Of a stretch of 47,032 nt of DNA, positions 21,865 to 44,644 are shown piece by piece. A program made the position numbers and the translations under genes. The stretch covers positions 1-47,032 of IMG/VR virus record IMGVR_UViG_3300048929_000742; one strand, 5' to 3'. Within the stretch, counting starts at the first letter, position 1. Each line of letters begins with the position of its first letter. This DNA is from a virus. A model generated the notes under the pieces. The model was not told the DNA's origin and did no database searches. It saw only the letters and a list, made by a program, of their open reading frames with translations.

Positions 21865-22326
21865 TCACTCGAAAACGTCAGCACCCGAGGCACTGATCGG
21901 CTCTTCGATCGCATCGATCGGCTTGGCCTTGTCAGCGGCTGCACGCTCCAAGGCTGCGATGGCATTCGCCAGTTCTTCGCCCGACATTTCGTGCGGTTCC
22001 TTGCTCTGTTTCAGGTCGTCCATGCCAAGCGTGCGGTCCATGACGACCTTAGCCGCCTGCACTCTGGCCCCTGCCGGTGCCTTGCTGTTGCTGATGATCT
22101 CGACGAGGCAACGCACGGCGGCGGGCAGCGCTTCCGAGAATAGCCGCTCCTGCTGCTGGCGCCCGATTTCGGCGAGCACAGCGGGCCTGGAAAGCGCCCT
22201 GCCAGCGTCCCGCGCCGGTTGCTTGTAGCCCGCTTCCTTCGCCGCATATATCCTGTCGCCGGTGGCCGCCATGCGGTCGATAAACACCTTTTCAGCCGCC
22301 GTAGTCTTCCCGCTTTTGATCGGCAT
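21865..22326 (-). CDS. Terminase small subunit
   Basis: The 153-aa product has an N-terminal DNA-recognition helix-turn-helix (roughly residues 8-55: FIDRMAATGDRIYAAKEAGY, then RALSRPAVLAEIGRQQ), a central helical oligomerisation segment and an acidic tail ending ADVFE, the shared Val-Phe tail of this phage. The pattern matches the P27/terS HTH families. It selects phage DNA and recruits the large subunit. ATG at 22326 is preferred, although an in-frame TTG five codons earlier exists. It is separated from the large subunit by the lysis genes and lies next to the iteron array, which may be its binding site. Confidence 0.78.
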   Translation of the reverse strand: MPIKSGKTTAAEKVFIDRMAATGDRIYAAKEAGYKQPARDAGRALSRPAVLAEIGRQQQERLFSEALPAAVRCLVEIISNSKAPAGARVQAAKVVMDRTLGMDDLKQSKEPHEMSGEELANAIAALERAAADKAKPIDAIEEPISASGADVFE

Positions 22327-22422
22327 TCCCGCTACTTCCAATCCAGATTGTTGAACAATCCATTACATATTGTTCACACGTCCCGCAATATGCGGCGCTT
22401 CTGATCTCGAATTTACCCGCTT

Positions 22423-22465
22423 TTGTCTGCTTCGTCGACCTACACAAATCAAAGCCGTCATACAA
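22423..22465. promoter_or_regulatory. Operator-like sites upstream of the small terminase gene
   Basis: TTGTCTG (22423-22429), CCTACAC (22439-22445) and CATACAA (22459-22465) are visible; the last two are 20 bp apart. On the - strand TTGTAT and TAGGTC are 17 bp apart and could form a weak promoter for the small terminase gene about 100 bases downstream. Confidence 0.45.
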
Positions 22466-22635
22466 ACCCGCCATCCTTCGTCCCGAGCATTGGCCCTTGT
22501 CGTCGGCCCTTTGCCTTCCGCTACTGGGACAATTTGTCCGCGCCCTTGTTCGGGCGCTCTGCCTGTCGGTACAAAATACAAGTGCGGGTTAGGCGGCCTA
22601 TCAGGGCCGCCACCCGCTATACGTAGTATAGGGTT

Positions 22636-22824
22636 AACTTCCGTACTTCCGTAAAACAACCTCCGTTAATAAAATCAATAACTTAGCGATACACTACCGT
22701 ACTTCCGGGAACTTCCGTACAGACTTCCGTAAACTCAATTAAATCAATAACTTAGCTTACAACCTCCCGGGACTTCCGTAAACCTCCGTATCAACTTCCG
22801 TAAACCTCCGTAGACTTCCGTTAG
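22636..22824. repeat. Iteron-like array, 13 copies of (A/G)AC(C/T)TCCGTA
   Basis: Thirteen close matches start at 22636, 22645, 22658, 22693, 22701, 22710, 22722, 22761, 22771, 22781, 22793, 22803 and 22813. Two AT-rich copies of AAATCAATAACTTAGC (22672-22687 and 22741-22756) interrupt the array. All repeats point the same way and occupy the gap directly after the primase-polymerase gene; the last copy reaches its stop codon. Layout is that of an iteron-type replication origin with unwinding elements; a terminase binding (pac/cos) site is the alternative. No other feature is seen in 22466-22635 apart from a 13-bp palindrome at 22527-22539. Confidence 0.75.
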
Positions 22825-24944
22825 TCGAAAACGCTCTTCTCAGGGACAATCTGTCCGGCATCAGCAAGCACTTTATAACCCCTGCGCTTGCTATCACTGT
22901 CGACCATTTCGACCCGAATTAGCCCTGACGCCTCCCAAAGCTTCAGTGTCTCTTCCGCGTCGGCGCCGTCAAAACCGTAGTCAAGGACCATTCGGCGGAC
23001 CGCATATCTGTCTTTCGCCTGCGGTGCCTTCGACCACGGTTCACCCTCATTCCACGCTTTGCGCATGGCGTCGAAGACAGAGGCCGTCGTGTCGGGTGTC
23101 AGCTCTGTGCCCGGCCCGATGGTCTGATCGGCGCGCTCGACAGTGATCGACGTTTCGCCACCTTCTAGCGCGACCGTGTCGAAGCGATAGGGCTCGTCCC
23201 AACCGTCCGGCCCGTCCTTCATCTTTTCGCATTCGATATGACCGACGGTCGCACCCTTGCGACGCTCGAGGCGGAAGACGAAGTCGCCCGCGCCTAGGAG
23301 CACCGTGGAACCGCGCATGTCGCCTGATTTGCCCGCATGGTGCACACCGACCACGGCGCCGCCTGTGGCGTCCCTGACAGCGTCACAGGCCTGCACGAAC
23401 CGCGTCATGTCTTTTTGCAAGTTCTCGTCTGCGCCTGGCATCGCACGCGACACGGTGTCGACGATGACTAGGGCGAATTTCGCGCCGGTCTGTTGCTGCG
23501 CGTTTGCGACCGTGCGGATCAGCTTCTGCATGTCATCTGGCGACATGAAGTTGATTGTCTCTTCGATCATCTTGAACCGAGACAGGAGCTGATCGGCGTC
23601 ACCGTGCTTCTTGATCCATGCCTCGATACGGTTCCTGAAACCGTAGGAACCTTCGGCCGCGAGATAGAGCACTTGCGCATTGTCGTCGAAGATCAGTTCG
23701 TCGCCGTTCCATTCCCTCTTCCCCGATGCGACATGAAGGGCGACGTCGAGGATCCAGAACGACTTGCCGGCACCCGGCACGCTGTAGAGAAAGCCGACAG
23801 AGCGCTTGGGGATATGGCGCGCGACCAGCCATTCGGCCGGTGGGCGATTGCGCAGATCGTCGAGCGTGATCAGCCTGAACGTGTCCGTGCTTGCTGTGGG
23901 GCGCGCTGCGAGCTCGGCAAACGGGTTTGTCGGTTCCTGGATATCGTCGAACCAGACCGACGCCGTCGTGAACTGGCCGCTGCTGTGACGCTCTGCCAGC
24001 TCGTAAAGCCAGCCTGCGCCGCGGCGGAATGGCGGCTTCATGCGGTCCCAATCCGCCCTGACGACGTCGGGGTCGTTATCACCGTCCGTCCACTTGTCGC
24101 ACCAGTCCGAAAAGATATGGAATGCTGTTTGCGGATCGTCGGGCAGTGCCGCCTTGATCGCATAGCCGATGCCGCAATAGCTTTCGCGCGACGGAAACAG
24201 ATCGGACGTGTTGGGGATTGCTGCGACGGCCTGTTCGATGTTCTCGCGCGTGCCTTTCAGCGCGTCCTGATTGATATCCGTGTTGGCGCCTTCGCGGATG
24301 ACTTCACCAGCTGCGGGCAAGAGCGGACGCAGCTTTTCAAGCAGGGCGGTGATTTGCTCGGGCTTGAATATCGGCAGCTCGTCGAACGGTAGAAGCGGCT
24401 TTGCCCATGTGTAGGGCTTTTGCGTCTTCGGGTGGATCCCGTGGACGACGAACTGCCTGCCATCTGAAAGGATTTCGACACGGTCAAGCAATCTGTTCTT
24501 GTCGTCGCGCTCGCCAAATTCGACGCGGCTATATTGAAAAGGGCCATCGACCCGGCAGACATAGGCCGCCTTCGGGTAATTGCCGATACGGATTGGCATG
24601 TCGCCCAGGTGTTCGGCGATGACGTCGCGGATGATGCGCGCGTGGTTTTCGTTCTTCGTGTCGGCGTCGATGACGATCAGGCCCCGCCCCGTCTTGATAC
24701 CGACGCCGGCGCCCATGGCGTTCCAGCGATGCAGATCGCGTTCGTCGGCCTCATATGGCAGCCAATCGAAGCCGGACCAGTCGCCGTCCCTGTTGCGCAC
24801 GCCCGGTGTCTTGCCGCGCCCGTCCTGTGTCGTGCCTACACGCTTGAACAGCGTCGACTTTTCCGAAATTTTGGCGTCGGGCGGAATGATGGGAACAAGC
24901 CGGGCATAGCCGAGCGAATGGAATTTGAGAAAAGGATTGCTCAC
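22821..24944 (-). CDS. Primase-polymerase / RepA-like ATPase replication protein
   Basis: The 707-aa product joins a bifunctional primase-polymerase domain (about residues 10-190, with GAGVGIKTGRGLIVIDADT carrying the catalytic acidic residues and a later HGIHP) to a RecA-fold ATPase of the RepA/AAA_25 type (about 370-590) with Walker A SVPGAGKSF and Walker B FALVIVDTVS, followed by GVHHAGKSG. A winged-helix-like end precedes the SVFD tail. It probably primes and unwinds phage DNA at the adjacent iteron array. GTG at 24944 is chosen: it gives the start SNPFLKFHSLGYARL three bases after the upstream stop; two GTG codons upstream are possible. Confidence 0.85.
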   Translation of the reverse strand: MSNPFLKFHSLGYARLVPIIPPDAKISEKSTLFKRVGTTQDGRGKTPGVRNRDGDWSGFDWLPYEADERDLHRWNAMGAGVGIKTGRGLIVIDADTKNENHARIIRDVIAEHLGDMPIRIGNYPKAAYVCRVDGPFQYSRVEFGERDDKNRLLDRVEILSDGRQFVVHGIHPKTQKPYTWAKPLLPFDELPIFKPEQITALLEKLRPLLPAAGEVIREGANTDINQDALKGTRENIEQAVAAIPNTSDLFPSRESYCGIGYAIKAALPDDPQTAFHIFSDWCDKWTDGDNDPDVVRADWDRMKPPFRRGAGWLYELAERHSSGQFTTASVWFDDIQEPTNPFAELAARPTASTDTFRLITLDDLRNRPPAEWLVARHIPKRSVGFLYSVPGAGKSFWILDVALHVASGKREWNGDELIFDDNAQVLYLAAEGSYGFRNRIEAWIKKHGDADQLLSRFKMIEETINFMSPDDMQKLIRTVANAQQQTGAKFALVIVDTVSRAMPGADENLQKDMTRFVQACDAVRDATGGAVVGVHHAGKSGDMRGSTVLLGAGDFVFRLERRKGATVGHIECEKMKDGPDGWDEPYRFDTVALEGGETSITVERADQTIGPGTELTPDTTASVFDAMRKAWNEGEPWSKAPQAKDRYAVRRMVLDYGFDGADAEETLKLWEASGLIRVEMVDSDSKRRGYKVLADAGQIVPEKSVFD

Positions 24945-24946
24945 GG

Positions 24947-25345
24947 TCACGCACCACCCCACATGTTAAGGCGGCGCAGCTCTGCGACTTCCTGTTTGAC
25001 GAGATCAATGGCCCGCGGCGGAAGCGGGGCAAGGCCGATGACGATAGGCAGACTGGTGATTTGCGAAAGCGCGACGAATGCGGCGGCCTCTTCCAGATAA
25101 TCGGCACCGGATGCGCAACGGATATACCACACGCCATTGCGCAGCTCGAGCTTATCGGGCCAGTTGTGGCATCGCGGGTAGGCGAGAAAGAAATCGACAA
25201 TAGCCCGCATTTCCGGCCGGTCATCGTCTGGCGTGTTAAGCTTCAGCTTTCGAAGGCGTTCGTCGTTCAGCACTTCAAAGAATGCGCTTCTCAGATCGCG
25301 ACGCCCGCGCCAATCTGCCTGTCTCTGTCTTAGTGTCTTGTTCAC
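24947..25345 (-). CDS. Unknown protein upstream of the replicase
   Basis: The 132-aa product starts at a GTG with a weak GCGGGG element. It has a basic N-terminal helix (NKTLRQRQADWRGRRDLR), a central LELRNGVWYIRCASGADYLE segment and a helical Leu-rich end. No family is recognised. It ends three bases before the replicase start, so the two are likely co-transcribed from the operator-bearing region at 25371-25468, which suggests a replication accessory role. Confidence 0.65.
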   Translation of the reverse strand: MNKTLRQRQADWRGRRDLRSAFFEVLNDERLRKLKLNTPDDDRPEMRAIVDFFLAYPRCHNWPDKLELRNGVWYIRCASGADYLEEAAAFVALSQITSLPIVIGLAPLPPRAIDLVKQEVAELRRLNMWGGA

Positions 25346-25370
25346 TGCATGGCCCCGCTGAATGGAATAA

Positions 25371-25468
25371 CCGACGTTACCCCTGTGTGTCGTCCGACGT
25401 CAACCGACAAATCAGACTTGCCATACAAAATCCACCGTACTATATCTTGTGGGCAGTCCCTTTGTCGG
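25371..25468. promoter_or_regulatory. Operator array upstream of the replication genes
   Basis: CCGACGT (25371, 25394), CCGACAA (25404), CAGACTT (25413) and CATACAA (25422) run in one direction at 9-10 bp steps; TTGTGGG (25447) and TTGTCGG (25462) face them. On the - strand TTGACG (25398-25403) could be a -35; the best -10 near 25376-25381 is poor. Confidence 0.6.
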
Positions 25469-25482
25469 TGACTAAATGCGTG

Positions 25483-25520
25483 AAAGCGGCGCGGCCTTTT
25501 CGACAGGGCAGCGCCGCTTT
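25483..25520. terminator. Terminator hairpin after the 25546-26946 genes
   Basis: AAAGCGGCGC (25483-25492) pairs perfectly with GCGCCGCTTT (25511-25520). The + strand continues TATTTTT; the - strand has only TTT. As the genes on the right run leftwards, it most likely stops their transcript before the replication promoter. Confidence 0.6.
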
Positions 25521-25545
25521 TATTTTTCGTAACGATGGTGGTAGA

Positions 25546-26435: not shown

Positions 26436-26462
26436 GCTGGCATCCTTTTGTCGGTGGAATTT

Positions 26463-26726
26463 TTAGTCGAAGACGGAGGCCGACGGCGGATCTGGTTCGG
26501 GCTGCGGCTCTTCAGGTTCGGGGCTGGTCTCGGGCGGGAACGCCTTGTCCATGGCTTCTTCGGCGGTGGCGCCGACGAACTGATATGGCGCGACGTCCGC
26601 TTCAGGCGGCATGATTTCCAGCGTCACGACGCCGCGTGGCTCGAAAGCGTAGAGCGCGAACCCACAATCAGGATTTGACGCGCGCAGCTGGTCGAAACGC
26701 TCAATCGAAGATGTTGAGGGGCGCAT
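26463..26726 (-). CDS. Unknown early protein with VFD tail
   Basis: The 87-aa product has a mixed alpha/beta core (residues about 8-65, including SNPDCGFALYAFEPRGVVTL) and a Pro/Glu-rich linker leading to the end SASVFD. The flexible acidic linker before the tail is the layout expected of an exposed C-terminal docking peptide, as in SSB proteins. The gene overlaps the RHH gene by 26 bases. No family known. Confidence 0.65.
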   Translation of the reverse strand: MRPSTSSIERFDQLRASNPDCGFALYAFEPRGVVTLEIMPPEADVAPYQFVGATAEEAMDKAFPPETSPEPEEPQPEPDPPSASVFD

Positions 26727-26946
26727 GGGCGGCCTCCTTCTTGACGATGCGTTCGACTTCCTTGTCGCCGCGCTCGCGCACGTACTCGGTCAGTACGGAC
26801 GAAACGACGCGGCTGCGGGTCGCACCAAGATGCGCGGCGACGTTATCGATCCGCGCGATCAACGACTTTTCCAACCTGAAGGAGATCGGTTTGCTGCGCC
26901 CTTCAGGCGGGCTTGCCGATGGCTCTTTCTCGACACTCTTTGTCAA
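26701..26946 (-). CDS. Ribbon-helix-helix DNA-binding protein
   Basis: The 81-aa product contains a typical Arc/CopG ribbon-helix-helix: strand KPISFRLEKS, then helices SLIARIDNVAAHLG and TRSRVVSSVLTEYVRERG (about residues 19-60). The TTG at 26946 is chosen since AAGGAG lies nine bases upstream and a good promoter (-10 at 26981-26986) stands just before it; longer frames would start upstream of that promoter. It ends LNIFD, a variant of the shared tail. Likely an early transcription regulator; operator not identified. Confidence 0.78.
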   Translation of the reverse strand: MTKSVEKEPSASPPEGRSKPISFRLEKSLIARIDNVAAHLGATRSRVVSSVLTEYVRERGDKEVERIVKKEAAHAPLNIFD

Positions 26947-26973
26947 AGCTTTCTCTCCTTGCGGTGTTGACAG

Positions 26974-27037
26974 TGTCTGTTTTGTATGACAGTTGTATGC
27001 CACTGTCAACAGACAAAACAGACAGATCAACCGACAA
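26974..27037. promoter_or_regulatory. Divergent operator region with - strand promoter
   Basis: On the - strand, -35 TTGACA (27004-27009) and -10 TACAAA (26981-26986) are 17 bp apart and drive the RHH gene. Operator-like 7-mers TTGTATG (26982, 26993), CAGACAA (27010), CAGACAG (27019) and CCGACAA (27031) cover both the promoter and the path to the + gene at 27049. The region thus serves two divergent units. Confidence 0.7.
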
Positions 27038-27048
27038 AGGATAGCGCA

Positions 27049-34915: not shown

Positions 34916-35664
34916 GCGAATACGTCCTGTTGGCTGTAATGGGTTTTTGGAATGGCGGATAGGCGAGCGGCCGCTTTAGCTGCGAAGGTTTCATCCAGTT
35001 CTATGCCGATGAAGTTTCTGCCGGTTGCGAGCGCCGCAGCGCCGGTGGTTCCGCTTCCGCAAGCGAAGTCCAAGATCAGATCGCCCGGACTCGAGTATGT
35101 GCGCAGGAGATATTCGAACCACTCAACAGGCTTTTGCGTCGGGTGAAACTTGCCCGGATCGTCGTTATTCATCACCGGAAAGCGCTGAACGGTGCGCGGA
35201 TAACGGCTTGTGCTGCCGCCGTAGGTGGTCGGCTTTTGGCTGCCGTAAACGGGCGTGAAGCCGGTCCGGTTTGCGAAGTTTCCGGGCTTATGGCCTTCTG
35301 TCATCTGCGGCTGGTAAAGCGGCTGCCGATCGCAGAAAACGATCGTATCTTCATGCGCCCGCAATGGAGCTCGGTTGGCGTTCAGATGGCCGCTTGCCTT
35401 GTTCTTTTCCCAAACCCAATGATGACGAAATTCTTTTATGTTGCTCGCGACTAGAACAGCCGTGAAAGGCATGCAAGCGGTGAAGACGATAGGCGCCCCC
35501 GGCTTGCGAATGCGTTTCAATACAGGCCATAGCTCATTCAGCGGGATTATTTCGTCCCAAGAACACTGTGTCGTTCCATAGGGTGGGTCGCAGAATATGC
35601 CGTCGACTGATGCGGACGGCATATTCTGCATGATTGGCAAACAGTCGCCTTGAAGGATCTGCAT
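34912..35664 (-). CDS. DNA N6-adenine or N4-cytosine methyltransferase
   Basis: The 250-aa product has motif IV DPPYG (residues about 26-30) before motif I LDFACGSGTTGAAAL (about 205-219), the beta-class order, and the FHPTQKPVEWFEYLLR segment. The DPPY tetrad marks amino-methyltransferases. No restriction partner lies nearby, so it is an orphan enzyme that could protect phage DNA or mimic host marks. It ends DVFA, a version of the shared tail, after a short linker. Confidence 0.85.
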   Translation of the reverse strand: MQILQGDCLPIMQNMPSASVDGIFCDPPYGTTQCSWDEIIPLNELWPVLKRIRKPGAPIVFTACMPFTAVLVASNIKEFRHHWVWEKNKASGHLNANRAPLRAHEDTIVFCDRQPLYQPQMTEGHKPGNFANRTGFTPVYGSQKPTTYGGSTSRYPRTVQRFPVMNNDDPGKFHPTQKPVEWFEYLLRTYSSPGDLILDFACGSGTTGAAALATGRNFIGIELDETFAAKAAARLSAIPKTHYSQQDVFA

Positions 35665-36492
35665 TTAGTGCGGTCCTGTCTGAACGTATTGCTTGATCTG
35701 ATCTCTCATCGAATTGGCGAAGAGCGTCAGTGCGACGGTTATTCCCGTGACCGGGGCGACTGCGATTTCCTGCACGCACTTGGCGCGCTCGCTGGTCTTT
35801 GCGACGGCAACGGCTGCGGCTTTGTCGGCAGCAGCAGCTGTCGCGTCCTGCGCCCGTAGCGCTGTGCATTTCTGCTGCTCGTCAGCCCGCGCGGCGGCGA
35901 CCGCTTGAGAAAGGGCCGTCGCTGCGGCGGCAGCGTCTTGTTGACGCAGGGTTGTGCATTTGGCCTGTTCATCTGTCCGCGCTGCTGCGACGGCCTTTGC
36001 CTTGTCGCTGACAGCTGCCGTGGCGTCCTGTTGACGGAGCGTGGCGCACTTCTGCTGCTCGTCGGCACGAGCTGCGGCAACGGCCTGATTTTGTGCGTTC
36101 GCGGCGGCTGTGGCGTCTTGCTGGCGGAACGTGGTGCACTTCTGCTGCTCGTCGGCGCGGGCGGCAGCGACGGCTTTATCTTGCGCCTGTCTGGCGTCCG
36201 TAGCGGCCTTGTCGGCGGCGATCCTGGCGGCTGCGCGTTCATCCTCCCGCGCCGCGGCAATTGCTCTTTGCAGGGCCGTTGCATCGGTCTGGCGCTGTGC
36301 GTCGACCTGTTCCTGCATGGCGGTCATTTCGGCGGCGCGCTCGGTACGCATATCGTTGACGGTTGCCGCAACGGCTGCCCGGATCCGCTCTTGAACGACG
36401 GTGCTTTCCGGGCCTGACACGACTTGGTTGATGATCGGGTATATGCTGGCGATAATGCGCTTCGTGCGCTCTTCAGGGGTTAGATGGCTCAT
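35665..36492 (-). CDS. Ala-rich coiled-coil protein with 30-residue Cys repeats
   Basis: The 275-aa product has a helical N-terminal domain (residues 1-75) and then five or six 30-residue repeats of the form KAVAAARADEQQKCTTLRQQ plus DATAAA, with Cys at residues 119, 149, 179, 209 and 239, exactly 30 apart. A short hydrophobic segment (ITVALTLFANSM) and a basic end follow. A long rod-like coiled coil, perhaps cross-linked or binding a metal, is likely. It sits between two methyltransferase genes with a four-base overlap to one. Function unknown. Confidence 0.65.
   Translation of the reverse strand: MSHLTPEERTKRIIASIYPIINQVVSGPESTVVQERIRAAVAATVNDMRTERAAEMTAMQEQVDAQRQTDATALQRAIAAAREDERAAARIAADKAATDARQAQDKAVAAARADEQQKCTTFRQQDATAAANAQNQAVAAARADEQQKCATLRQQDATAAVSDKAKAVAAARTDEQAKCTTLRQQDAAAAATALSQAVAAARADEQQKCTALRAQDATAAAADKAAAVAVAKTSERAKCVQEIAVAPVTGITVALTLFANSMRDQIKQYVQTGPH
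35773..36267 (-). repeat. 90-bp in-frame repeats with periodic Cys codon
   Basis: Units cover residues 76-105, 106-135, 136-165, 166-195, 196-225 and a degenerate 226-240. Units 2-5 keep AVAAAR(A/T)DEQ(Q/A)KC almost unchanged; unit 1 has lost the Cys. Confidence 0.85.
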
Positions 36493-37685
36493 CCGAATAC
36501 GTCCTGTCTGTTTTGAGGTTCCACGTTGGCCGCAAAATCATACACCGAAATCAGCCGAAAACGTTCTGCTTCGGTTTCGATAAACGCTTCGATGAAGCCC
36601 TGCGCTTGCTCGGCATTGATTGCATTGCCGTAACCGCGCAGTCGTCCCACGCGGGCGGCAGCCCCATGAGCCAGCGGGAATGTGCCGGGTTCAACTGGCC
36701 GCCACTTTCCATCCCGGCAGAAGAGCCAGTCAGCAGCTCGCCAGAGGCCGTTAGTCGGGCCGGTTCCGGGTTGATGCGCAAATTCGCCACCACCATTTCG
36801 TTCAACGGTCGGGCGTTCTCTCCCCATCGATCGTGAGTCGCCCCCTTCCAATCCCTGGACGCCGCTGTAGGCCAGCCCGACAAGGCCGTTGCCATGTTCA
36901 GCGTCACGTTCGGGCCGAACGGATCGCCCCCGTAGCCCCGCTTCGCGTCGGTCGTCGTCGTCGTCGTCGTCGTCGGCCACCCCGCCAACAGCGCAAAGTC
37001 CATCAAGTCGTTGCTGCGTTCCGGGTTCAGCGCCCGTTTCATCTGTCCGCCGCCCGAACCGTCCGAACTCTGTGGCGTCGGCCAGCTCGACATCTGCGCG
37101 AGTTGCGGCAAACTGCTGCCCGACATTCCGTCCGTTATGCCCACTCCTGCCCGCTCCCCGTCCGTCGCCGACGGCGTCGTCCAGCCTTTGCGCGATCCAG
37201 TAGAGCCGCTGTCTGATATGGGGCGCGCCGAAGCCCGCAGCGCAGGTATCAACCGCGCCGAAGGCGTAGCCCGTTCCTTCCATGTCAGCTTGTACAAGGT
37301 CGAGCCAAGCAAGGCCGTCCTTGCTCGCAACCTGCTCGCCAGCGACGACTGCAGGGCTGCACTCGCGGATGAGATAGTGGAAGAAGGGCCATAGGTGCCG
37401 CTCGTCATCAAACCCGCCTCCTTTGCCTGCCGCGCTGAAAGGTTGGCATGGGCAAGAGCCGGTCCAGATCGGTCTGTCGTCGGGCCATCCGGCTCGTCGC
37501 AGGGCATACGACCAGACGCCAATTCCTGCGAAGAAATGGCATTGCGTGTATTTTCTAAGGTCGTCGGGTCGAACATCGACAATGCTCCTGGTGTCCACGT
37601 CGCCGGGTGCGATATGCCCGGCCTTGATCAGCTCGCGTAGCCACGCGGCGGCAAAAGGATCGATCTCGTTATAATAGGCCGTCAT
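36489..37685 (-). CDS. DNA cytosine-C5 methyltransferase
   Basis: The 398-aa product has motif [18 protein letters not shown] (residues about 51-67), motif [18 protein letters not shown] with catalytic Cys, motif VI EQVAS, motif [14 protein letters not shown] and motifs [21 protein letters not shown]. Between them lies a long variable region including an Asp8 run. It methylates cytosine, probably as an orphan protective enzyme. The end RQDVFG is the shared tail. A second gene (36551-37576) is encoded in another frame, which may explain the unusual composition of the variable region. Overlaps both neighbours by ATGA. Confidence 0.85.
36551..37576 (-). CDS. Overprinted gene inside the cytosine methyltransferase gene
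   Basis: A 341-codon frame, shifted by one base against the methyltransferase frame, starts at ATG 37576 with AGGAG eight bases upstream (37585-37589). The product is Ser/Pro/Thr-rich with [32 protein letters not shown], several WPT motifs and [14 protein letters not shown] with [18 protein letters not shown] recall similar proteins as common phage entries misannotated as methyltransferases. It ends QNVFG, the same tail as its neighbours but with different codons (GTT TTC GGC). Own ribosome site, length and tail argue that it is expressed. Function unknown. Confidence 0.7.
36951..36974. repeat. (GTC)8 trinucleotide repeat
   Basis: Eight perfect GTC units encode Asp8 in the methyltransferase and Thr8 in the overprinted frame. 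Because the unit is three bases, length changes keep both frames open. Confidence 0.95.
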
Positions 37686-37903
37686 CCGAATACGTCCTCG
37701 TCGATCATGGCGGGCTTCTTCGGTTCAAGTGCCAGACGTAGAGCCTGCGCGGGGTCCGGGTCGCATCCGACGTCCCACGGTCCCATGAGCGCGCCATGAA
37801 ATTTCGTTATCGCCTGCCAACCGCCGACGCTTTCGCGAAGTACAATTTCAGAAAGGCCACGCTCGGCGGCCTTCCCGATCAGGTCGTCGAGCGTGTCTGT
37901 CAT
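37682..37903 (-). CDS. Small early protein with DVFG tail
   Basis: The 73-aa product has TLDDLIGKAAERGLSEIVLR, GGWQAITKF and DPDPAQALRLAL, a fold reminiscent of small phage proteins of unknown function that share a G(G/R)WQA core. The end is IDEDVFG. ATGA overlaps at both ends show tight coupling in the operon. No role known. Confidence 0.65.
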   Translation of the reverse strand: MTDTLDDLIGKAAERGLSEIVLRESVGGWQAITKFHGALMGPWDVGCDPDPAQALRLALEPKKPAMIDEDVFG

Positions 37904-38190
37904 TTCGCACCTAAAAGCAGCTGCGCTTTTGCGGCTTCAAGCGGCACCGCGCCCCGAACTGTGTTGAAGCACATGCGACCGAGATCGTCACGGAAGAGCG
38001 GGCGGCTCGTCGTCAGGAAGTCCAAGCGGGCTTTCGCTTTCGTCAACGAACCATCCGCCATGATACGGGCGTAGCCGCCGCCCGCCTTCACGAACAGATA
38101 TCCGTCGCGTTCGGCCAGTGTCGTCTGCTTGAAAATGCCGTTCTCGACGATAATGGCGCCTTCGCCTTCGATGTCCTTGAAGAAGCTCAT
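37900..38190 (-). CDS. Small unknown early protein
   Basis: The 96-aa product has an N-terminal strand-rich part (GEGAIIVENGIFKQTTLAER, DGYLFVKAGGGYARI) and a helical C-terminus (VPLEAAKAQLLLGAK). It lacks the Val-Phe tail, unlike the two neighbouring proteins. It overlaps both neighbours by four bases. No family recognised. Confidence 0.65.
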   Translation of the reverse strand: MSFFKDIEGEGAIIVENGIFKQTTLAERDGYLFVKAGGGYARIMADGSLTKAKARLDFLTTSRPLFRDDLGRMCFNTVRGAVPLEAAKAQLLLGAK

Positions 38191-38759
38191 TCGAAGACCC
38201 CCGCAGCACTGACGGGTTCTTGTGCCGACGCCCTGCCCTTGCGCACGGCGGCAGCGACAAGCGCGACCTGGTGGATCGTGTCGTCAAGCGCATTGTGATG
38301 GATGCGCTTGCGCTGCAGATCGCGGGTGTCGAAGTTGAACACGTCGTAGACCGTGCGCGTGTCGCGGACGTTGTAGAAGCGCCACGGCACTTTCGCATCG
38401 AAGCGAGCATATGCGGCTTCCAGCAAGACAGGGTCGAAGTTTGCGCCCTGCGCCCAAACGATGGAAGCGCCCTGATAGCGGAACCACTTGTCGAATTCGC
38501 GCAGCGCATGTTTCAACGGCTGCGGGTCGACGAGAAAGGCGTCGCGGGCTTCCTTCGACTGTTCAGACCACCATTTCTCCGTCGCCGGATCAACAGTGAG
38601 GCCAGCGTCCAGGCATGACTGCCTGTCGATGTTGACGTAGAATTGGGCGTTGATTTCGCCGGTCAGGGCGAAGCTTACAGCGCCGATGGATCGAAGAGCG
38701 CTTCCGGGCGTCGTGCCGAGCGTTTCGATATCAAGCATGATGTTCGGTGTCTTTGTCAT
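38187..38759 (-). CDS. DnaQ-like 3'-5' exonuclease
   Basis: The 190-aa product has Exo I IMLDIETLGTTPGSALRSIG (residue about 7), Exo II region WAQGANFDPVLLEAAY and Exo III HHNALDDTIHQVAL with the His-Asp pair, the DEDDh pattern also seen in phage T4 DexA-type and RNase T-like nucleases. All four acidic residues are present. It may degrade host DNA or trim ends during replication or recombination. C-terminus AAGVFE carries the shared tail after a short linker. Confidence 0.82.
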   Translation of the reverse strand: MTKTPNIMLDIETLGTTPGSALRSIGAVSFALTGEINAQFYVNIDRQSCLDAGLTVDPATEKWWSEQSKEARDAFLVDPQPLKHALREFDKWFRYQGASIVWAQGANFDPVLLEAAYARFDAKVPWRFYNVRDTRTVYDVFNFDTRDLQRKRIHHNALDDTIHQVALVAAAVRKGRASAQEPVSAAGVFE

Positions 38760-39043
38760 CCGAAGACCCCACCCATTCCAAGCGCGTCCAAATAGAGATC
38801 GAGGACCGCCATGCGGTTTTGGCGGTCTTCGGTGTTTTGCTTGCGCAGACGAATAATCTCGCGGATCACCTTGTCGTCGTAGCCCTTGCCTTTTGCCTCG
38901 CTGAGCACGTCTTTGATGTCGCTGCCGATCGCGGCTTTCTCTTCTTCCAACCGCTCGATGCGCTCGACGATCGTGCGCAATTCGTCGGCGGCAACTTTCT
39001 GCGTATCGTTCGGCCTTTCCTTGCCGTCTGATGTCGATGCCAT
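38756..39043 (-). CDS. GapR/DUF2312 homologue
   Basis: The 95-aa product is a full-length DUF2312 protein: ADELRTIVERIERLEEEKAA, DIKDVLSEAKGKGYDDKVIR and IIRLRKQNTEDRQNRMAVLD, ending LYLDALGMGGVFG. GapR of alphaproteobacteria clamps overtwisted AT-rich DNA and aids replication fork progress. Family members I recall end about at ALGM; the extra GGVFG is the tail shared by other early proteins of this phage. AAGGAG stands before the ATG at 39043, and operators lie just upstream. Confidence 0.88.
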   Translation of the reverse strand: MASTSDGKERPNDTQKVAADELRTIVERIERLEEEKAAIGSDIKDVLSEAKGKGYDDKVIREIIRLRKQNTEDRQNRMAVLDLYLDALGMGGVFG

Positions 39044-39060
39044 TTCAAGTCTCCTTGTGA

Positions 39061-39113: not shown

Positions 39114-39116
39114 ATA

Positions 39117-39743
39117 TTACGCGAAAAGACCGCCTGCGCCTTCGCCAGACTTCGTCCCGGCTGGTGCATCGCCTTCGTCGTCGATCGTTTCCAGCCACTT
39201 ATCCGGATCAGGACCGCCGCCACCGCCGAGCACTTCGTCGCCCTGCGCAACCTTGGCAACCTGCACCAGTGAAATGCCGAAGCTGATCCCCTTGCCGTTC
39301 TTTTCGTTCTCCCAGGTATAGGCGTTCACGACGGCGTAGACATGCGAGCCGGACGGGCAACCTTCCATTTCCATGACGGGATTACGGCGCTTGTCGAAGA
39401 CCTTCGGCTTGTAGTCCGCGCCGGACGTGCAGCGGATGAAGGTATGGCCCGCATAGCCCTTGTTGCGCTCGCCGGTCTTTTTGTTAATGCCCTGCTTGCC
39501 GTCGCCATCCAGGAACGGGGATTTGATGACCTCGTTCTTGATCATGTCTTTGGCCTTGGCGCCCCATTCGTCGACGGCAGCGGCCAATGCAAGGTTCTGC
39601 AGAGCCGAAATGTCGGTCGTCTTGGGGAACAGCAGCGTGCAGCCATAGCCCTTCGACCCGTTGTCGCGCTCGCGCGCTTCGAACAGATCCCTCGTGAAGC
39701 TGACAATTGCCAGCGGGGTTTTTGCGTCTTCAGATCGTGCCAT
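39117..39743 (-). CDS. DUF2815-type single-stranded DNA-binding protein
   Basis: The 208-aa product fits DUF2815: FTRDLFEARERDNGSKGYG near the start, AGHTFIRCTSGADYKPKVFD in the centre and VYAVVNAYTWENEKNGKGIS before an acidic Gly-rich tail ending GEGAGGLFA. Members are structurally similar to phage SSBs such as T7 gp2.5. The tail is laid out as in SSB proteins (disordered, acidic, aromatic near the end). AGGAG lies nine bases before the ATG. It probably coats ssDNA and recruits partners at the fork. Confidence 0.8.
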   Translation of the reverse strand: MARSEDAKTPLAIVSFTRDLFEARERDNGSKGYGCTLLFPKTTDISALQNLALAAAVDEWGAKAKDMIKNEVIKSPFLDGDGKQGINKKTGERNKGYAGHTFIRCTSGADYKPKVFDKRRNPVMEMEGCPSGSHVYAVVNAYTWENEKNGKGISFGISLVQVAKVAQGDEVLGGGGGPDPDKWLETIDDEGDAPAGTKSGEGAGGLFA

Positions 39744-39757
39744 GTTAAAGGCTCCTG

Positions 39758-41050
39758 TTAATCGAGAATATCGAAGTGTCTGTTCACGGCCGGTTCAACC
39801 GCCGCCCGTGTGGTTTTCGTGGCGCGGACAAGGTTCGTCCCTTTCGTTTCCGCGCCTGATAGGTCTTTCAGCTGTTCCGCGACGTCGGCCTTGCCCGCCT
39901 TTTCCAGAGCCGTGCGGATCTGTTTTGGCGTCTTGGCCTTCGGTGCGTTCCAGATCTTGTCATCGGCCAGCCCGGCGGTTTTGGCGGTTTTCGCCGCTTC
40001 TGCCTCTTTGCCGTCCAACCACTTTTCCCGGCCCTCTTTCGGGACAAGAATATAGTTCGGGATTTCGACGCCCGCTTCGGCCTGGCCGTGCCAATAGGCG
40101 CGGACCGAGTTGATCCATTCCCCCAGCATGTCGGCGGCGTCGAGCAGCTGCGCTGCGCGTTCCGGCGACAGGGTATCGGGCGAATTGGAAATGCGGGGCT
40201 GATCCATGTCGTCGAACCAGACACCGGCCGCATCAAGCGCCCGTTGTTCCAGTGCGGGGCAAAACCCGGCGGCCTTGCAGAACTTGCAATGATCGCCAGC
40301 CGAAAGGTGCGTCATGTTCCATAGCCCTTGCGGGATAAGGTTCGTGTCCACCTTTTCCATGTCGGCAAATGCCTGCGCTGTGCGCTGCATCGCCGCCATA
40401 AGGTCGGTCGTCCACTCGACGAGATCGACGACGTCGATTTCCTCGCTACGGATCCGCCCGTCCTTGTGCCCTGCCCGCGGCTGAACGATCGTCACGCGGA
40501 CGCGTTCAACGCTAAGGCTCGGGTTTGCCAACATGGCGCCGAGACCGTAGGTCCGCAATTGCGGATTGCCCTTGGCTTCAACGACTACGCCCCGGCCGCC
40601 TTTCAAGTCGACGACTTCAAGCAGTTTTCCGGCCGGGGAATAGATCACAGCATCGGCGGTCCCGCCCGCCTGGAAAGGCGGTTTGAGCGAGTGCAGCGAA
40701 AAACGCTGTTCGATCTGCAGGAGTGACGCAGGGTTGACGTTCTTCGGCGCAGCTTCGATCACGCGCTTGCGCACGTAGTCGACATACATCTGCGCCGTTT
40801 CGGCCATTTCCTCGTCGACTTCGAAGGAGAATTTCTTTCCCTTCTCTGTCGTGCCGATGAATTCCGCCGCCTGCTTTCCTTCACGAAGGCACTTTTCCGA
40901 AATCTGGTGCGCACAAGTGCCCCAGTCGGCAGCCTCATTCGTGGTTTCTGGCAGGCCGATCGTCAGAGCGAGCGCACCGCTACAATTCCAATTCCGGTCG
41001 GTGGCGGAAGCCGACCAGGTAGCGTGCTCGCGTTCGGCGTGAACGGCCAT
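39758..41050 (-). CDS. DUF2800 PD-(D/E)XK nuclease
   Basis: The 430-aa product has the DUF2800 features: an N-terminal WSASATDRNWNCSGALAL, the nuclease core GGTADAVIY then LLEVVDLKGG (D and D-x-K) and QLRTYGLGAM, and a late cysteine cluster CKFCKAAGFC that with an upstream Cys may hold an Fe-S centre as in Cas4/AddB-type nucleases. It likely processes DNA ends in phage recombination together with the SSB-like protein next to it. It ends FDILD, a divergent form of the shared tail. Confidence 0.8.
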   Translation of the reverse strand: MAVHAEREHATWSASATDRNWNCSGALALTIGLPETTNEAADWGTCAHQISEKCLREGKQAAEFIGTTEKGKKFSFEVDEEMAETAQMYVDYVRKRVIEAAPKNVNPASLLQIEQRFSLHSLKPPFQAGGTADAVIYSPAGKLLEVVDLKGGRGVVVEAKGNPQLRTYGLGAMLANPSLSVERVRVTIVQPRAGHKDGRIRSEEIDVVDLVEWTTDLMAAMQRTAQAFADMEKVDTNLIPQGLWNMTHLSAGDHCKFCKAAGFCPALEQRALDAAGVWFDDMDQPRISNSPDTLSPERAAQLLDAADMLGEWINSVRAYWHGQAEAGVEIPNYILVPKEGREKWLDGKEAEAAKTAKTAGLADDKIWNAPKAKTPKQIRTALEKAGKADVAEQLKDLSGAETKGTNLVRATKTTRAAVEPAVNRHFDILD

Positions 41051-41052
41051 CG

Positions 41053-41748
41053 TTACACCTTGTCGCGCTTGTAGGGGTTCTGCGAAAGCGCCGTCTGAAA
41101 GACGTTGACGACCTTCGCCAGCTTTTCCGGGTCTTCCGGAATGAGCGACAGTTTCCAGTAGTCTTCACCTTCTGGTGGCTTGCCGAGCGCAGAGCCGATC
41201 AACTTCGGGCCGTCTTCCTGTGTCGCAGGCAGGCCGTAGGTGTTGACGTACTGTGTCATCGCGGCCTTGACGTCGTCGCGGGTCAGTTCCTTGCGAGTGT
41301 CTTCGACTTCGGCCTTTTCGTCGGCCTTGTCTTGATCCTCGTCTTCGACGGTATCTTCCGGACCGACACGCTCACCGCCGGTCGAAATCTGCGACTTTGT
41401 TTCCGGCTCGGAAGTGTCGTTCGCGGCCTGATCGGCGGCGTCGGCCGCTTCGTCTTCGGCGATCTCTTCCTTCGTCCGGCGAGCCTTTCCGGGCGCAGGC
41501 TTACCGCGTTCGCGGGCTTGCGTTTCCGTAACCGCCGACTGCGTTTCGCTTTTCGCGGCTTGCCCCTCCTGCAGCATACCGACTTCGCCGCTGCCCAACC
41601 CGGTCAAAGGTTCGCGGACGACGACCGCCGTCGTGCCCTTCAGCACGTCAATCCGGCGCGTGAAGCCAATAGCGGCCATGGCCTCGTCGATCTGTTCCGC
41701 AAGCGGCCCATGGTCCGGCGTGCCAAAAATTTCGATTTTCAGTGTCAT
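41053..41748 (-). CDS. Acidic protein of unknown function
   Basis: The 231-aa product has a small N-terminal domain (residues 1-50, LKIEIFGTPDHGPLAEQIDE), a long low-complexity Glu/Asp/Ala/Gln region (about 60-155), and a C-terminal helical domain (LTRDDVKAAMTQYVNTYGLP, DPEKLAKVVNVFQTAL). It starts inside the stop of the helicase gene (ATGA) and is followed by DUF2800. It might be a recombination or replication adaptor; the family is not recognised. Confidence 0.65.
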   Translation of the reverse strand: MTLKIEIFGTPDHGPLAEQIDEAMAAIGFTRRIDVLKGTTAVVVREPLTGLGSGEVGMLQEGQAAKSETQSAVTETQARERGKPAPGKARRTKEEIAEDEAADAADQAANDTSEPETKSQISTGGERVGPEDTVEDEDQDKADEKAEVEDTRKELTRDDVKAAMTQYVNTYGLPATQEDGPKLIGSALGKPPEGEDYWKLSLIPEDPEKLAKVVNVFQTALSQNPYKRDKV

Positions 41749-43094
41749 GCTAGTACCTCTCTAATGGAGCTCCAAAGGCGGAGCAGACTTTCGTTGACGG
41801 CCTCGTCGATGCTTCCTTCCAGCACGCAGACACGGACGATGGCCTGACGGGTTTGCGTGTGGTTCGTGATCCGAAGCGACATCTGCTTCATGGATTTTGG
41901 GGAAAAGACGGTTTCGACGAACCAGAGAACGGACGCGGAGCTAAGGTCGATAGCCTCACCCGCCGCTTCGATCTGGCCGAGAAAAACGCGCTTCTGCGGA
42001 TTGTTCAGGAACTGCTGTTCGGCGTCGCCCCGAGCAGTGGCCGACGTCGAGCCGTCGATACCGACGACACCGAACTCTGAAAGTCCGTCCTTCAGGATTT
42101 GCCCGACGTCCTTGTGCCAGTAAGCCAGAACGATCTTGTCGAGCCCGCCGTCGAATTCGTCCTTGACGGCGTCGACGACGGCGTACGCCTTCATTTCGCC
42201 AGTCATGCGGCGAAGCGGTCCAAGGTGCATTTCCAGATTGCGGGTGTCGCCGTCACGCGCGGCGGCAAGAACAGACGTCCGGTCGATATCGCCTTCGACG
42301 TCGCGCAGCATCTTGGCGGACACGACCAGCGGAAGCGTTTCGTAGACTGGCGGACGGATCCCGACGTCGGCCTGCGTGCGCTTCAGCATGAAGCCGTTCA
42401 GGCGATCGCGCAGCTCGGTTTCGTTCTTGCCGCCCATGATGACGATAATGGACTTCCAGGGCGACAGCTTTTTCGGCCGCCATTTGCAATAGCGGTCGCG
42501 GAAGGCCTCATAGGTCGTAACGTCGGGCCAGCCCTTGTCCGGGTCTGACTGCAGGCGTTCCGGGCACAATGAGCGCATCATCGGGTAAATGTCAGAAAGA
42601 TCGTGCGGGTACGGCGTGCCAGTCAGGCACCAGACGCCCTTCGCAGCGTTGGCGATGGAAAGGCCGTGGTGCAGGATCGTGCCGCCGTCTAGGAGCTGCC
42701 CGTAGACCGATTGCGTCCGTTTCGCCGCGAAATTCTTGGCGTTGTGGGCCTCGTCGAGAAAGACGCGATCCCAGGAGCGTTTAAGGATTTCTGTGCGTAT
42801 CTGTGGATTGACGATCGACGGCCACCCCACGATGCAGACGGGCGCGGTCAGCTTCGTCGGCTGCGCGATGATCTGCGTTTGCCGATTGTATGGCGACCAG
42901 TTCGGGAAAGCGCGTTTCCACACTGGCCGACCGGAAGCCGTCGTCACGACAAGGATCGTGTCGTCGAGATTGTAGTCGGCGGCAAGGATGGCAGTTCCGG
43001 TTTTGCCGACGCGCGGCTCGTCTGCGAGCAACGCGTTTTGCTGGCGTGAAAGCCATTCGGCACCGGATAGCTGTGTAGGAAAAGGTTGCAGCAA
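41745..43094 (-). CDS. SNF2/DEAD-type helicase
   Basis: The 449-aa product (TTG start at 43094, AGAGGAA upstream) begins FPTQLSGAEWLSRQQNALLA followed by motif I DEPRVGKTGTAILAA; motif Ia region, motif II DEAHNAKN, motif III VWCLTGTPYPHD and C-terminal motifs V-VI with IEAAGEAIDLSSASVLWFVE and QMSLRITNHTQTR are all present. A longer frame to 43178 would start upstream of the promoter at 43155-43182, so the short start is preferred. Many alphaproteobacterial phages carry such a helicase beside DUF2800; a role in replication restart or branch migration is likely. Confidence 0.83.
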   Translation of the reverse strand: MLQPFPTQLSGAEWLSRQQNALLADEPRVGKTGTAILAADYNLDDTILVVTTASGRPVWKRAFPNWSPYNRQTQIIAQPTKLTAPVCIVGWPSIVNPQIRTEILKRSWDRVFLDEAHNAKNFAAKRTQSVYGQLLDGGTILHHGLSIANAAKGVWCLTGTPYPHDLSDIYPMMRSLCPERLQSDPDKGWPDVTTYEAFRDRYCKWRPKKLSPWKSIIVIMGGKNETELRDRLNGFMLKRTQADVGIRPPVYETLPLVVSAKMLRDVEGDIDRTSVLAAARDGDTRNLEMHLGPLRRMTGEMKAYAVVDAVKDEFDGGLDKIVLAYWHKDVGQILKDGLSEFGVVGIDGSTSATARGDAEQQFLNNPQKRVFLGQIEAAGEAIDLSSASVLWFVETVFSPKSMKQMSLRITNHTQTRQAIVRVCVLEGSIDEAVNESLLRLWSSIREVLA

Positions 43095-43154
43095 CTGCCG
43101 TTCCTCTCGTAATTCCGTAAATCGTAAGCCAACATCGGTAGTGCGTTGTCGGCC

Positions 43155-43182
43155 ATTGTAGGCCGACAAATCAGACAATCAA
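43155..43182 (-). promoter_or_regulatory. Helicase promoter with operator sites
   Basis: On the - strand, -35 TTGATT (43177-43182) and -10 TACAAT (43155-43160) are 16 bp apart. Operator-like sites TTGTCGG (43146), TTGTAGG (43156), CCGACAA (43163) and CAGACAA (43172) cover the spacer, the -10 and the start point. Confidence 0.7.
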
Positions 43183-43760
43183 GATAAATTTTCGGGCGTT
43201 GCCTTGCGATCATCCACGCCTATTTGGCGCTCTTCGTAGGCGATCAGGAACATCAAGCAGCACGCAGCGTGCCACAGATGCGACTTGCCGGTTTCAGCGT
43301 CGACTTTCTCGCCGCCCCACCAGGCCCACATATGACGCATCAGCGCGCCGAAGCAGCGGCCCCATGACATGCCCTTTTCCCAATTACGGGCGGCGTACTT
43401 GTTCGCGCCGAATGCCAGAATATCGGCTGTTGCCATGAGAAATTCCGGCGCGATCAGGTCAAGACGCGGTTTTCCGCCATCTTCCTTCCACGCGGGCTCG
43501 TCTTTCTGCTGGCCGGCTTTGTTCGCAACGTTGCGGGTAATCTCTTCTTCCGACTGCCATTCGGCGACGAGGTCAAAGCCGTGAGGCTTGCCGGCGGCTT
43601 TAACCAGCCGTCCATCTGAATAAAATAAATATGACCCGGTAAGATCAGGTCCTTCGAGTGCATAAAGGCCCGGCTGCCCGTTCCGAAATTTTTGGGCGCT
43701 CCGCCATTTCCCGCCGTCTCGCGAGCGATACGCTTTACCCTCTTCGATTTTAATCGTCAT
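43179..43760 (-). CDS. dATP/dGTP diphosphohydrolase-like (MazG-fold) protein
   Basis: The 193-aa product has an N-terminal beta region (MTIKIEEGKAYRSRDGGKWR) and a C-terminal all-helical domain with KPRLDLIAPEFLMATADILA, KYAARNWEKGMSWGRCFGAL and SHLWHAACCLMFLIAYEE. This is the pattern of the dATP/dGTP diphosphohydrolase N-terminal family, related to MazG nucleotidohydrolases and to MazZ of 2-aminoadenine phages. No PurZ gene is present. It probably adjusts dNTP pools. ATG at 43760 gives ATGA coupling to the resolvase gene. Confidence 0.72.
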   Translation of the reverse strand: MTIKIEEGKAYRSRDGGKWRSAQKFRNGQPGLYALEGPDLTGSYLFYSDGRLVKAAGKPHGFDLVAEWQSEEEITRNVANKAGQQKDEPAWKEDGGKPRLDLIAPEFLMATADILAFGANKYAARNWEKGMSWGRCFGALMRHMWAWWGGEKVDAETGKSHLWHAACCLMFLIAYEERQIGVDDRKATPENLS

Positions 43761-44179
43761 CCGAACACTCCTTCGTCGGTTATAGGCTTCACCCGGATTT
43801 CCATGCGCGGGCGGTCGCTGTAGAATTTGCGGATCCGGCCATCGACAACCTGCGCGTCGTCGATCCACACGATCAGATTGAGCGCGTCGCAGATCTTGGC
43901 GAAGTTGTCGTAGTCGGGTTTCTTCGTCGGCCTGATCTCGCCCGCCAGGGCGGCGGCCTTCCATTTCTTCGGTTTGCTTTCCGGGATCGCCATGAAGGCG
44001 ACGATTTCAACGTCGAGCGGGCCGTCGAGCGGCGCGCGCTCGGCCATTGCCTGTTGAGCGGCCAATGCCAGACGGCTTTCGTAATTGACGGTCCGTTCCG
44101 GCGTGTAGGCGTGTCCAACTCTTGTCAGCCGAACGCGCTCCTTGCCCATCGGCGGCCCTGCCAGCACGATTTCGATCAT
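43757..44179 (-). CDS. RusA-like Holliday junction resolvase
   Basis: The 140-aa product has the RusA layout: LAGPPMGKERVRLTRVGHAY at the start, KKPDYDNFAKICDALNLIVW with the catalytic Asp pair, and DDAQVVDGRIRKFYSDRPRM near the end. RusA dimers cut four-way junctions formed during phage recombination and before packaging. The natural domain ends about at RVKPI; the final TDEGVFG is the shared tail. Length matches RusA (120 aa) plus the tail. Confidence 0.87.
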   Translation of the reverse strand: MIEIVLAGPPMGKERVRLTRVGHAYTPERTVNYESRLALAAQQAMAERAPLDGPLDVEIVAFMAIPESKPKKWKAAALAGEIRPTKKPDYDNFAKICDALNLIVWIDDAQVVDGRIRKFYSDRPRMEIRVKPITDEGVFG

Positions 44180-44415
44180 GCGTAGCGCTCGCGCCGCAGC
44201 CTGAAACTGTCCATTTCAGAAAGAAGATCCTCAGCGCGCTTCACGACAGCCGGATTTTCCGACCGCAAGGCGATGACTTCCAATTCGTCGCGCAGATCTA
44301 GAAACTCTTCGGCGGAACACTGGCCCTCTTTTTTAATCCGCGCGAATTTCTGCTGAAATTGCCAAAGCAGCGAAGTTTCTCCCTCGAGAACCTTCAACTT
44401 CTCACTCGAAAACAT
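44176..44415 (-). CDS. Small helical early protein
   Basis: The 79-aa product is predicted almost wholly helical (GETSLLWQFQQKFARIKKEG, EEFLDLRDELEVIALRSE). Its ATG lies inside the final codons of the preceding gene (GATGTTTTCGAGTGA), a 14-base overlap in another frame. It ends ERYA without the shared tail. Function unknown. Confidence 0.65.
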   Translation of the reverse strand: MFSSEKLKVLEGETSLLWQFQQKFARIKKEGQCSAEEFLDLRDELEVIALRSENPAVVKRAEDLLSEMDSFRLRRERYA

Positions 44416-44644
44416 CGATCAGCCTCCCTGTCTCTACATACGGCAAGAGGCTGATCGGGCGCCCCTTATCCAACTCCACCAATGCGATCAGGACCGGCCA
44501 CCATTCGCCGGGAATGGAAGCCCTGATAAACCATTTCCTGATTGTTTCTCTTGCCGGCACTTCGACGTTTGCCCGGTCTGCCATGTCGGCGATGCTGTCC
44601 GGGGTGACGTCGAAGGCGGACAGGAACGCAGCTCTGTTGAACAT
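44402..44644 (-). CDS. First gene of the early operon, HTH-like
   Basis: The 80-aa product has FNRAAFLSAFDVTPDSIADM, NVEVPARETIRKWFIRASIP and GEWWPVLIALVELDKGRPIS, which fits a small helix-turn-helix domain like those of Cro-type or CII-type phage regulators that recognise DNA through the RETIRKWF helix. Its place opposite the XRE repressor, across the shared operator region, also fits Cro. AAGGAA precedes the ATG. It ends LIDVFE, the shared tail, which would be odd for a pure repressor; unproven. Confidence 0.65.
   Translation of the reverse strand: MFNRAAFLSAFDVTPDSIADMADRANVEVPARETIRKWFIRASIPGEWWPVLIALVELDKGRPISLLPYVETGRLIDVFE

Follow-up and report, generated by a model that had tools for sequence, protein, structure and literature searches.

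Why do a dozen or more proteins of one virus, unrelated to each other, end in the same few residues? The question is raised by the IMG/VR virus record IMGVR_UViG_3300048929_000742, which was analysed over its whole length of 47,032 bases (the window). Its early region codes for a family-A-like DNA polymerase (PolA), a DUF2800 protein, an Enc34-type single-stranded DNA-binding protein (SSB), an SNF2 helicase, a primase-polymerase (PrimPol), RusA, a GapR-like protein, an exonuclease and methyltransferases, and a preliminary description had pointed to a Val-Phe tail at the C-termini of many proteins encoded between positions 21,865 and 44,644. Here we report that this tail is strongly enriched, tied to a replication module in related phages and altered in concert within a genome. 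We read it, with a probability of about 0.62, as a C-terminal docking peptide recognised by one replisome component that the phage itself encodes; the binding, the identity of the hub and the recruitment to the replication fork are what we infer from these patterns in the sequences.

Within the window, the tail was defined as Val, Ile or Leu followed by Phe and one last residue ([VIL]F plus one). It ends 12 of the 58 genes called with our own gene caller, or 13 when the open reading frame at 36551-37582 is counted, which is missing from the calls because it lies in another frame over the gene at 36489-37685. Composition alone predicts a rate of 0.0064 per protein, i.e. 0.37 of the 58 genes (binomial p = 3e-15), and [VIL]F occurs at internal positions of these proteins at 0.0079 per position; the enrichment that the preliminary description had proposed to look for is present. 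All 12 tailed called genes are among the 24 early minus-strand genes, and the tail is absent from the 21 minus-strand genes below 21.8 kb (late) and from the 13 plus-strand genes of the window.

The 13 C-termini named in that description were all found in place. They belong, all on the minus strand, to an early protein (21865..22341, GADVFE), the primase-polymerase/AAA helicase with matches to AAA_25, Prim-Pol and PriCT_2 (22821..24962, EKSVFD), an 87-residue protein with no assigned function (26463..26726, SASVFD), a CopG-like repressor (26701..26946, PLNIFD; phrog_7325, E = 5e-7), whose start is that of our gene caller, the longest open reading frame extending to 27342, an N6/N4 DNA methyltransferase (34912..35664, QQDVFA), a C5 cytosine methyltransferase (36489..37685, RQDVFG), the second open reading frame, which overlaps that gene in a different frame (36551..37582, KQNVFG), a 73-residue protein with no assigned function (37682..37903, DEDVFG), a Rv2179c-like/RNase_T exonuclease (38187..38759, AAGVFE), the GapR-like protein (38756..39043, GMGGVFG), the SSB of Enc34/T7 gp2.5 type (39117..39743, AGGLFA), the RusA resolvase (43757..44179, DEGVFG) and a carph-isopro-like protein (44402..44644, LIDVFE; E = 5.6e-8, under the curated cut-off). 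The DUF2800 protein, of PD-(D/E)XK type (39758..41050, minus strand), ends in the tail-like HFDILD, as had also been noted. The tail lies outside the domain match in RusA and GapR, as proposed, and likewise in the exonuclease. That no structural or late protein carries it holds for all 21 late genes, with the qualification that the protein at 21865 weakly resembles a terminase small subunit (phrog_51, E = 0.0037; its homologue in locus L005 matches Terminase_2 at E = 5e-4, under the curated cut-off), so that a packaging protein may be among the carriers. An open reading frame of 86 residues that reaches the window end (46772-47032) contains DLFGNPV, which resembles the tail core and is internal, not C-terminal.

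Relatives were gathered by scans with the polymerase, a polymerase profile (best 80 of 194 taken) and an SSB profile, to which two named phages were added. The resulting 155 sequences, including the window, were collapsed into 108 loci, which are related to each other and span at most 22 kb except for the named phages and the window; genes on contigs were called with our own codon-based caller, and families were formed by BLAST single linkage. For relatives, the pattern of the tail ([VILMA]F followed by any of GADESNKQT) was fixed after the first examples were known. Fifty-nine loci contain family F5, represented in the window at 41053-41748 (F5+ loci); in the comparison of homologues, module loci are these 59 plus six truncated loci added by hand. 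Relatives were located in Bosea lathyri, Rhodopseudomonas pseudopalustris and Rhizobium phage RHph_N65, and a scan of 397 genomes of the Bosea order gave five matches at E <= 1e-100, Bosea included.

In the F5+ loci, 329 of 1,657 genes are tailed, 327 of the 1,340 on the strand of F5 and 2 of the 317 on the opposite strand, with the consensus [G/D/S/N]-[V/I/L/A]-F-[G/D/A/E/S]-COOH. The carriers comprise about 52 families or singletons, the SSB not counted, and of the families with at least four members 13 are tailed in at least 70%, 4 are intermediate and 31 are tailed in at most 10%. Homologues of the 87-residue protein (29/30), the 73-residue protein (32/33) and the exonuclease (12/12) are almost always or always tailed there. 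Homologues of other proteins mostly have the tail in module loci and lack it elsewhere: PrimPol is tailed in 16 of 19 module loci and in 1 of 25 others, GapR in 48/59 and 0/10, and the C5 methyltransferase in 16/18 and 1/10. The SSB, tailed in 46/60 module loci, has the tail in 14/43 of the others too.

An independent scan with GapR (best 80 of 440 relatives, 79 of them new loci) found a single tailed GapR among 76, in L292, the sole locus with polymerase, SSB and F5; L292 is the same contig as L007 and thus not a new locus. L274 has a match to the SSB only, and its GapR is untailed; L035, which the GapR scan also returned and which was left out of its count, has a GapR ending in ALGML. In one Bosea genome two other GapRs end in LQAVGESA and LQAVGETA while the prophage copy ends in LQAVGVFG, and none of the three non-prophage GapRs examined in the host genomes of two relatives has a tail. 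Among 77 viral loci that lack the module, only 8 of 1,369 genes match the pattern and Phe is not enriched at position -2. The preliminary description would have been undermined by tails lost at random in relatives or by no excess over other phages; the opposite was found, as the tail tracks the module. Chance and composition as its origin are ruled out by the enrichment in the window together with the near-absence in loci lacking the module.

The varied codons also bear out the earlier claim that selection acts on the protein. In the tails of the F5+ loci every Val, Ile and Ala codon is used, and TTC makes up 0.80 of the 329 Phe codons against a background of 0.79. Codons ending in C are rare directly before Phe (GTC 0.16 vs 0.50 background), and last codons ending in A are overrepresented (GGA 0.51 vs 0.09 background), perhaps owing to ATGA stop-start overlaps. 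A signal at the nucleotide level was rejected for the Phe, despite this third-position bias elsewhere in the tail.

The tails of one genome also agree with one another. Among 284 tails (SSB excluded), the residue at -3, directly before Phe, is Val in 127, Ile in 96, Leu in 39, Ala in 21 and Met in 1, the set having been selected by this pattern, and it is mostly common to the unrelated proteins of one genome: Val in the window and L036, Ile in L016 and L030, Leu in L027 and L120, and mostly Ala in L022 and L111. Pairs within genomes share the -3 residue at a frequency of 0.69, compared with 0.345 (standard deviation 0.017) when residues are permuted within families; at -4 the values are 0.300 and 0.281. 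The agreement at -3 persists when only 21 singletons are considered (0.717 vs 0.408) and again among 14 non-redundant loci with PolA identity below 60% (0.681 vs 0.406), and in neither case was it reached in 5,000 shuffles, so that pure descent was rejected as the reason for the concerted types. The G + C content was rejected as their cause as well: its ranges overlap among the V, I, L and A types, the I type being slightly lower. One receptor that evolves along with its ligands would be expected to leave this pattern, with the same tail on many proteins, different tails in different lineages and change in concert.

Distantly related lineages have shared tips of their own. In the following phages, the labels F5-like, DUF2800-type and SSB are our assignments from gene order and resemblance. 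In coliphage Utah, the primase (DEDEV), the F5-like protein (EEDDV), a Cas4-like protein (DDDEV), the SSB (EDEV) and the terminase small subunit (DDDEV) have similar ends, the polymerase lacks the shared tip and one late gene also ends in DEV, which makes 6 of 19 called genes. PspYZU01 ends its F5-like protein and SSB in GLI, its DUF2800-type protein in QLI and its helicase in DLI, with LI on two more genes (6 of 26 in all), and in BPP-1 bbp38 and bbp40 end in DLV and the methyltransferase Bpm in DLI. Three proteins of L159 (Arenibaculum) end in DLLS, and ALG ends RusA, GapR and the family f11 protein of L105. No obvious common tip was seen among the genes listed for Streptococcus phage Javan140 and the methyltransferase-bearing Aeromonas phage AeroV_348. 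Across loci outside the F5+ set, where F5-like proteins were chosen by synteny and an iterated profile, the SSB tip resembles the tips of SNF2 (z = 3.2, n = 36), DUF2800 (z = 2.7, n = 43) and the F5-like protein (z = 2.2, n = 37), values that are only indicative because the loci are related to each other.

A further line of evidence comes from the methyltransferase locus. The genes at 36489 and 36551, first taken for two methyltransferases, are two frames of one stretch of DNA. All 28 members of the cytosine methyltransferase family have, on the strand of the gene, a second open frame that runs for 200 residues or more, and in 26 of them (exceptions L028 and L041) at least 93 of 100 synonymous shuffles give a shorter one. 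The second frame of the window has 343 residues and matches phrog_31772 (E = 4e-39) and phrog_1008 (E = 5e-33), both named DNA methyltransferase; its predicted structure has a mean predicted local distance difference test score (pLDDT) of 52 and is fairly confident only at about residues 71-120 and in a short stretch near residue 300. When the first frame is tailed (n = 17), the second is tailed too in 16 cases (exception L061, EAWVFT), and when the first is untailed (n = 11) the second never is. In L046, GapR and the family f14 protein end in MLS, the SSB in LLA and the two methyltransferase frames in LLS and MLS. The pairing of tails across both frames suggests that the second frame is translated and provides independent evidence of selection on the tail as protein. 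Among the matches listed, the DNA of the locus is 73-90% identical over about 140 to 1,080 bases in otherwise unrelated phages; a single search of the open-access literature found no description of overlapping methyltransferase genes of this kind.

If the tail is a docking peptide, the pocket of the hub would accept the Phe and the preceding residue, and as the pocket drifts the tails of its clients would be re-tuned, giving each lineage its own tail type. Through the tail, the clients (the SSB, the primase-helicase, the exonuclease, the resolvase, the methyltransferases, the GapR-like protein, perhaps the terminase small subunit and many small uncharacterised proteins) would be gathered at the replication fork. 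Several observations weigh against this reading. Tails of this pattern are absent from three F5+ loci (L105, L129 and L141), 8 of 50 typed F5+ loci are of mixed type, and in 45 of 58 F5+ loci the SSB ends in LF plus one residue regardless of the type of the genome. Agreement is not confined to -3 either: at -1 it is 0.260 vs 0.219 (about 3 standard deviations), and in the 14 non-redundant loci it is 0.323 vs 0.257 at -4 (14 of 5,000 shuffles) and 0.301 vs 0.220 at -1 (2 of 5,000). In the loci outside the F5+ set, moreover, the resemblance of the DUF2800 tip to that of SNF2 or the F5-like protein stays below |z| = 2.

The preliminary description had proposed that one hub, of phage or host, binds all the tails. 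The common partner is supported by the concerted change at -3, by the finding that the tail is neither lost at random in relatives nor as frequent in other phages, and by its place outside the domain match in RusA, GapR and the exonuclease; a hub of the host, be it the beta clamp or the partners of host SSB, is disfavoured. The clamp comes to mind because its motif, Qx[DS]LF, likewise places a hydrophobic-Phe core on many unrelated proteins that meet at one hub. The tails share that core, the set having been selected by it, and DnaE carries GQNDMFGG and GQSELFGG in the hosts of two relatives (Rhodopseudomonas and Bosea, respectively). That the tail is a variant of this motif, bringing phage proteins to the host clamp, is nevertheless improbable, as Gln at -6 stands at background (12 of 284 tails vs 9.5 expected). 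Pockets of the host replisome are expected to be conserved, and neither A-type tails (GAFA) nor the DEV and LI tips of other lineages suit such a pocket. In addition, the SSBs of L129 and L135 carry GGLFG followed by an SSB-like tip (DDEIPF and EDDISF, respectively), and the two thus look like separate sites. The receptor is taken to be encoded by the phage because the tips vary more than pockets of the host should and because the Gln of the clamp motif is absent. Even less probable is that a host protease or adaptor reads the tail as a signal for degradation or stability. The C-terminal position, the early carriers and the absence from late-region proteins of the window would suit such a signal, but the carriers are expected to be necessary throughout replication, the tails of one phage switch type together, and some SSBs continue beyond the tail (LFGE, LFGNQ, LFGDDEIPF).

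For a docking peptide read by the phage itself, the polymerase (32567..34915, minus strand, ending in GKRYRKD) is our tentative first candidate for the hub, at somewhat under an even chance. It is favoured by the analogy with T7, because PolA is never tailed (0/92 members) and because its tip is unlike that of each partner (all |z| under 2 in the loci outside the F5+ set). The protein of the window matches DNA_pol_A at E = 2.4e-8 and 33.8 bits, just below the cut-off of 34.3, and many of its relatives are annotated as DNA polymerase. Comparisons of relatedness speak against this choice. In 31 loci, tail type needs 10 parsimony changes on PolA, compared with 6 on SNF2, 6-7 on F5 and 8-9 on SSB, GapR and DUF2800; in 39 loci, the Mantel correlation with tail type is 0.211 for PolA and 0.357 for SNF2, and SNF2 alone stays significant in a partial Mantel test (r = 0.229). 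The untailed C-terminus of the polymerase may, furthermore, simply be fixed by its structure.

Within the docking explanation, the hub might instead be F5 (41053..41748, minus strand), in which the tails would attach to the helical C-terminal domain, or the adjacent SNF2 helicase (41745..43178, minus strand, untailed in F5+ loci), a possible though rather doubtful assignment. F5 is an undescribed family with two forms of the N-terminus, a conserved QDxADExAE segment and a variable C-terminal domain, apparently doubled in some relatives. In Pfam nothing matches the window protein better than E = 0.15, and PHROGs and NCBIfam gave no match at the thresholds applied. Its predicted structure (mean pLDDT 77.1) combines a variable N-terminus and a low-confidence middle with a confident all-alpha C-terminal domain (residues 161-231, pLDDT 93-98); Foldseek returned no PDB match at E <= 0.001 and a single BFVD match, F8TV50 (348 residues, E = 2.1e-5), which judging from its length is probably the homologue of EBPR siphovirus 2. 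In a second look, the best structural match was a peptide-binding ET domain, with a Z score of 5.0 that is within the range of common arrangements. F5 is untailed in all 59 loci. Of the tail-rich loci 45 of 49 contain it, and of the tail-poor loci 4 of 26, but its presence does not discriminate, because 37 further loci, not in the F5+ set, have F5-like genes. On trees, tail type fits SNF2 and F5 best, and the relatedness of SNF2 follows it best of the proteins compared, also in the Mantel test. On the other side, F5-like proteins bear the tip of their own lineage in PspYZU01, L079, L084 and Utah, SNF2 itself is tailed in 11 of 37 loci outside the module group, and the last 75 residues of F5 correlate weakly with tail type in the Mantel test (r = 0.160), with no contribution left in its partial form (r = 0.006). 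A scan for covariation with tail type, column by column, gave no clear site in PolA, SNF2, F5, DUF2800, SSB or GapR. The SSB is unlikely as the hub. The tails of clients would fill the groove visited by its own C-terminus, which in the crystal of the Enc34 SSB, in the passages cited, enters the beta-sheet groove of a neighbour (PMC5686142), and the tail of the SSB is mostly independent of the type of the genome; however, the SSB core follows tail type weakly (Mantel r = 0.165) and the protein is itself a constant carrier.

As to the window as a whole, a gene of the Phage_integrase family (45402-46520) and a tRNA-Thr gene (29-103) sit near its ends, as expected for integration at a tRNA gene, and it is therefore probably a prophage. 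The stretch 27049-27783 encodes a protein of 244 residues with tandem GYQGAATAS-type repeats, the opposite strand of which gives MLSPRPDSR repeats.

A broader proposal, which we put a little short of even odds, is that the docking tail serves as a portable address code. One hub with a fast-evolving pocket would recognise the four C-terminal residues encoded by as many as about a quarter of the early genes, products of overlapping frames included; new genes would join the replisome by gaining the current code, and differing codes would insulate the replication proteins of different lineages. The tail offers a handle on the assembly of phage replisomes and their uptake of accessory enzymes, and a route, from sequences alone, to probable replisome-associated proteins that lack a known function. 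The GapRs of the Bosea genome, two without the tail and the prophage copy with it, form a natural comparison pair.

To our knowledge, docking tails have been known only from one or two proteins per replisome, and a tail shared by many proteins was not described among the matches listed in the open-access PMC literature, subscription journals and preprints being outside that scope. Unlike the beta-clamp motif, the tail has no Gln, stands mostly at the very C-terminus and varies by phage. The tip of bacterial SSB (DDDIPF), the docking site for SSB-interacting proteins, is likewise a short hydrophobic C-terminal peptide, but there one bearer has many binders, whereas here many bearers would have one partner; nor is the Phe at the very end, as among the 293 genes of our first set it stands at -2 in 71 and at -1 in 5. 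The SSB of the window belongs to the Enc34/DUF2815 family (PF10991, E = 2.8e-21, 76.4 bits, gathering cut-off 26), the tail of which is discussed, in the passages cited, for interactions with replication proteins, oligomerisation and discrimination of single-stranded DNA, not as a tag on other proteins (PMC5686142). The closest likeness is to the replisome of T7, in which, according to the cited parts of these papers, flexible acidic C-tails of the helicase and the SSB act on a family-A polymerase: the acidic tails touch patches on gp5 (PMC12593628), binding of the gp4 helicase to the fork is no longer improved by the polymerase when the C-tails of gp4 are missing (PMC8835902), and the C-tail of the SSB gp2.5 likewise acts on gp5 (PMC5686142). 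The common tip on SSB and primase-helicase is found here as well (46/60 and 16/19 in the module loci, respectively), but unlike in T7 the Phe is penultimate, the last residue is small or acidic, and up to a dozen proteins per phage carry a code that varies by lineage.

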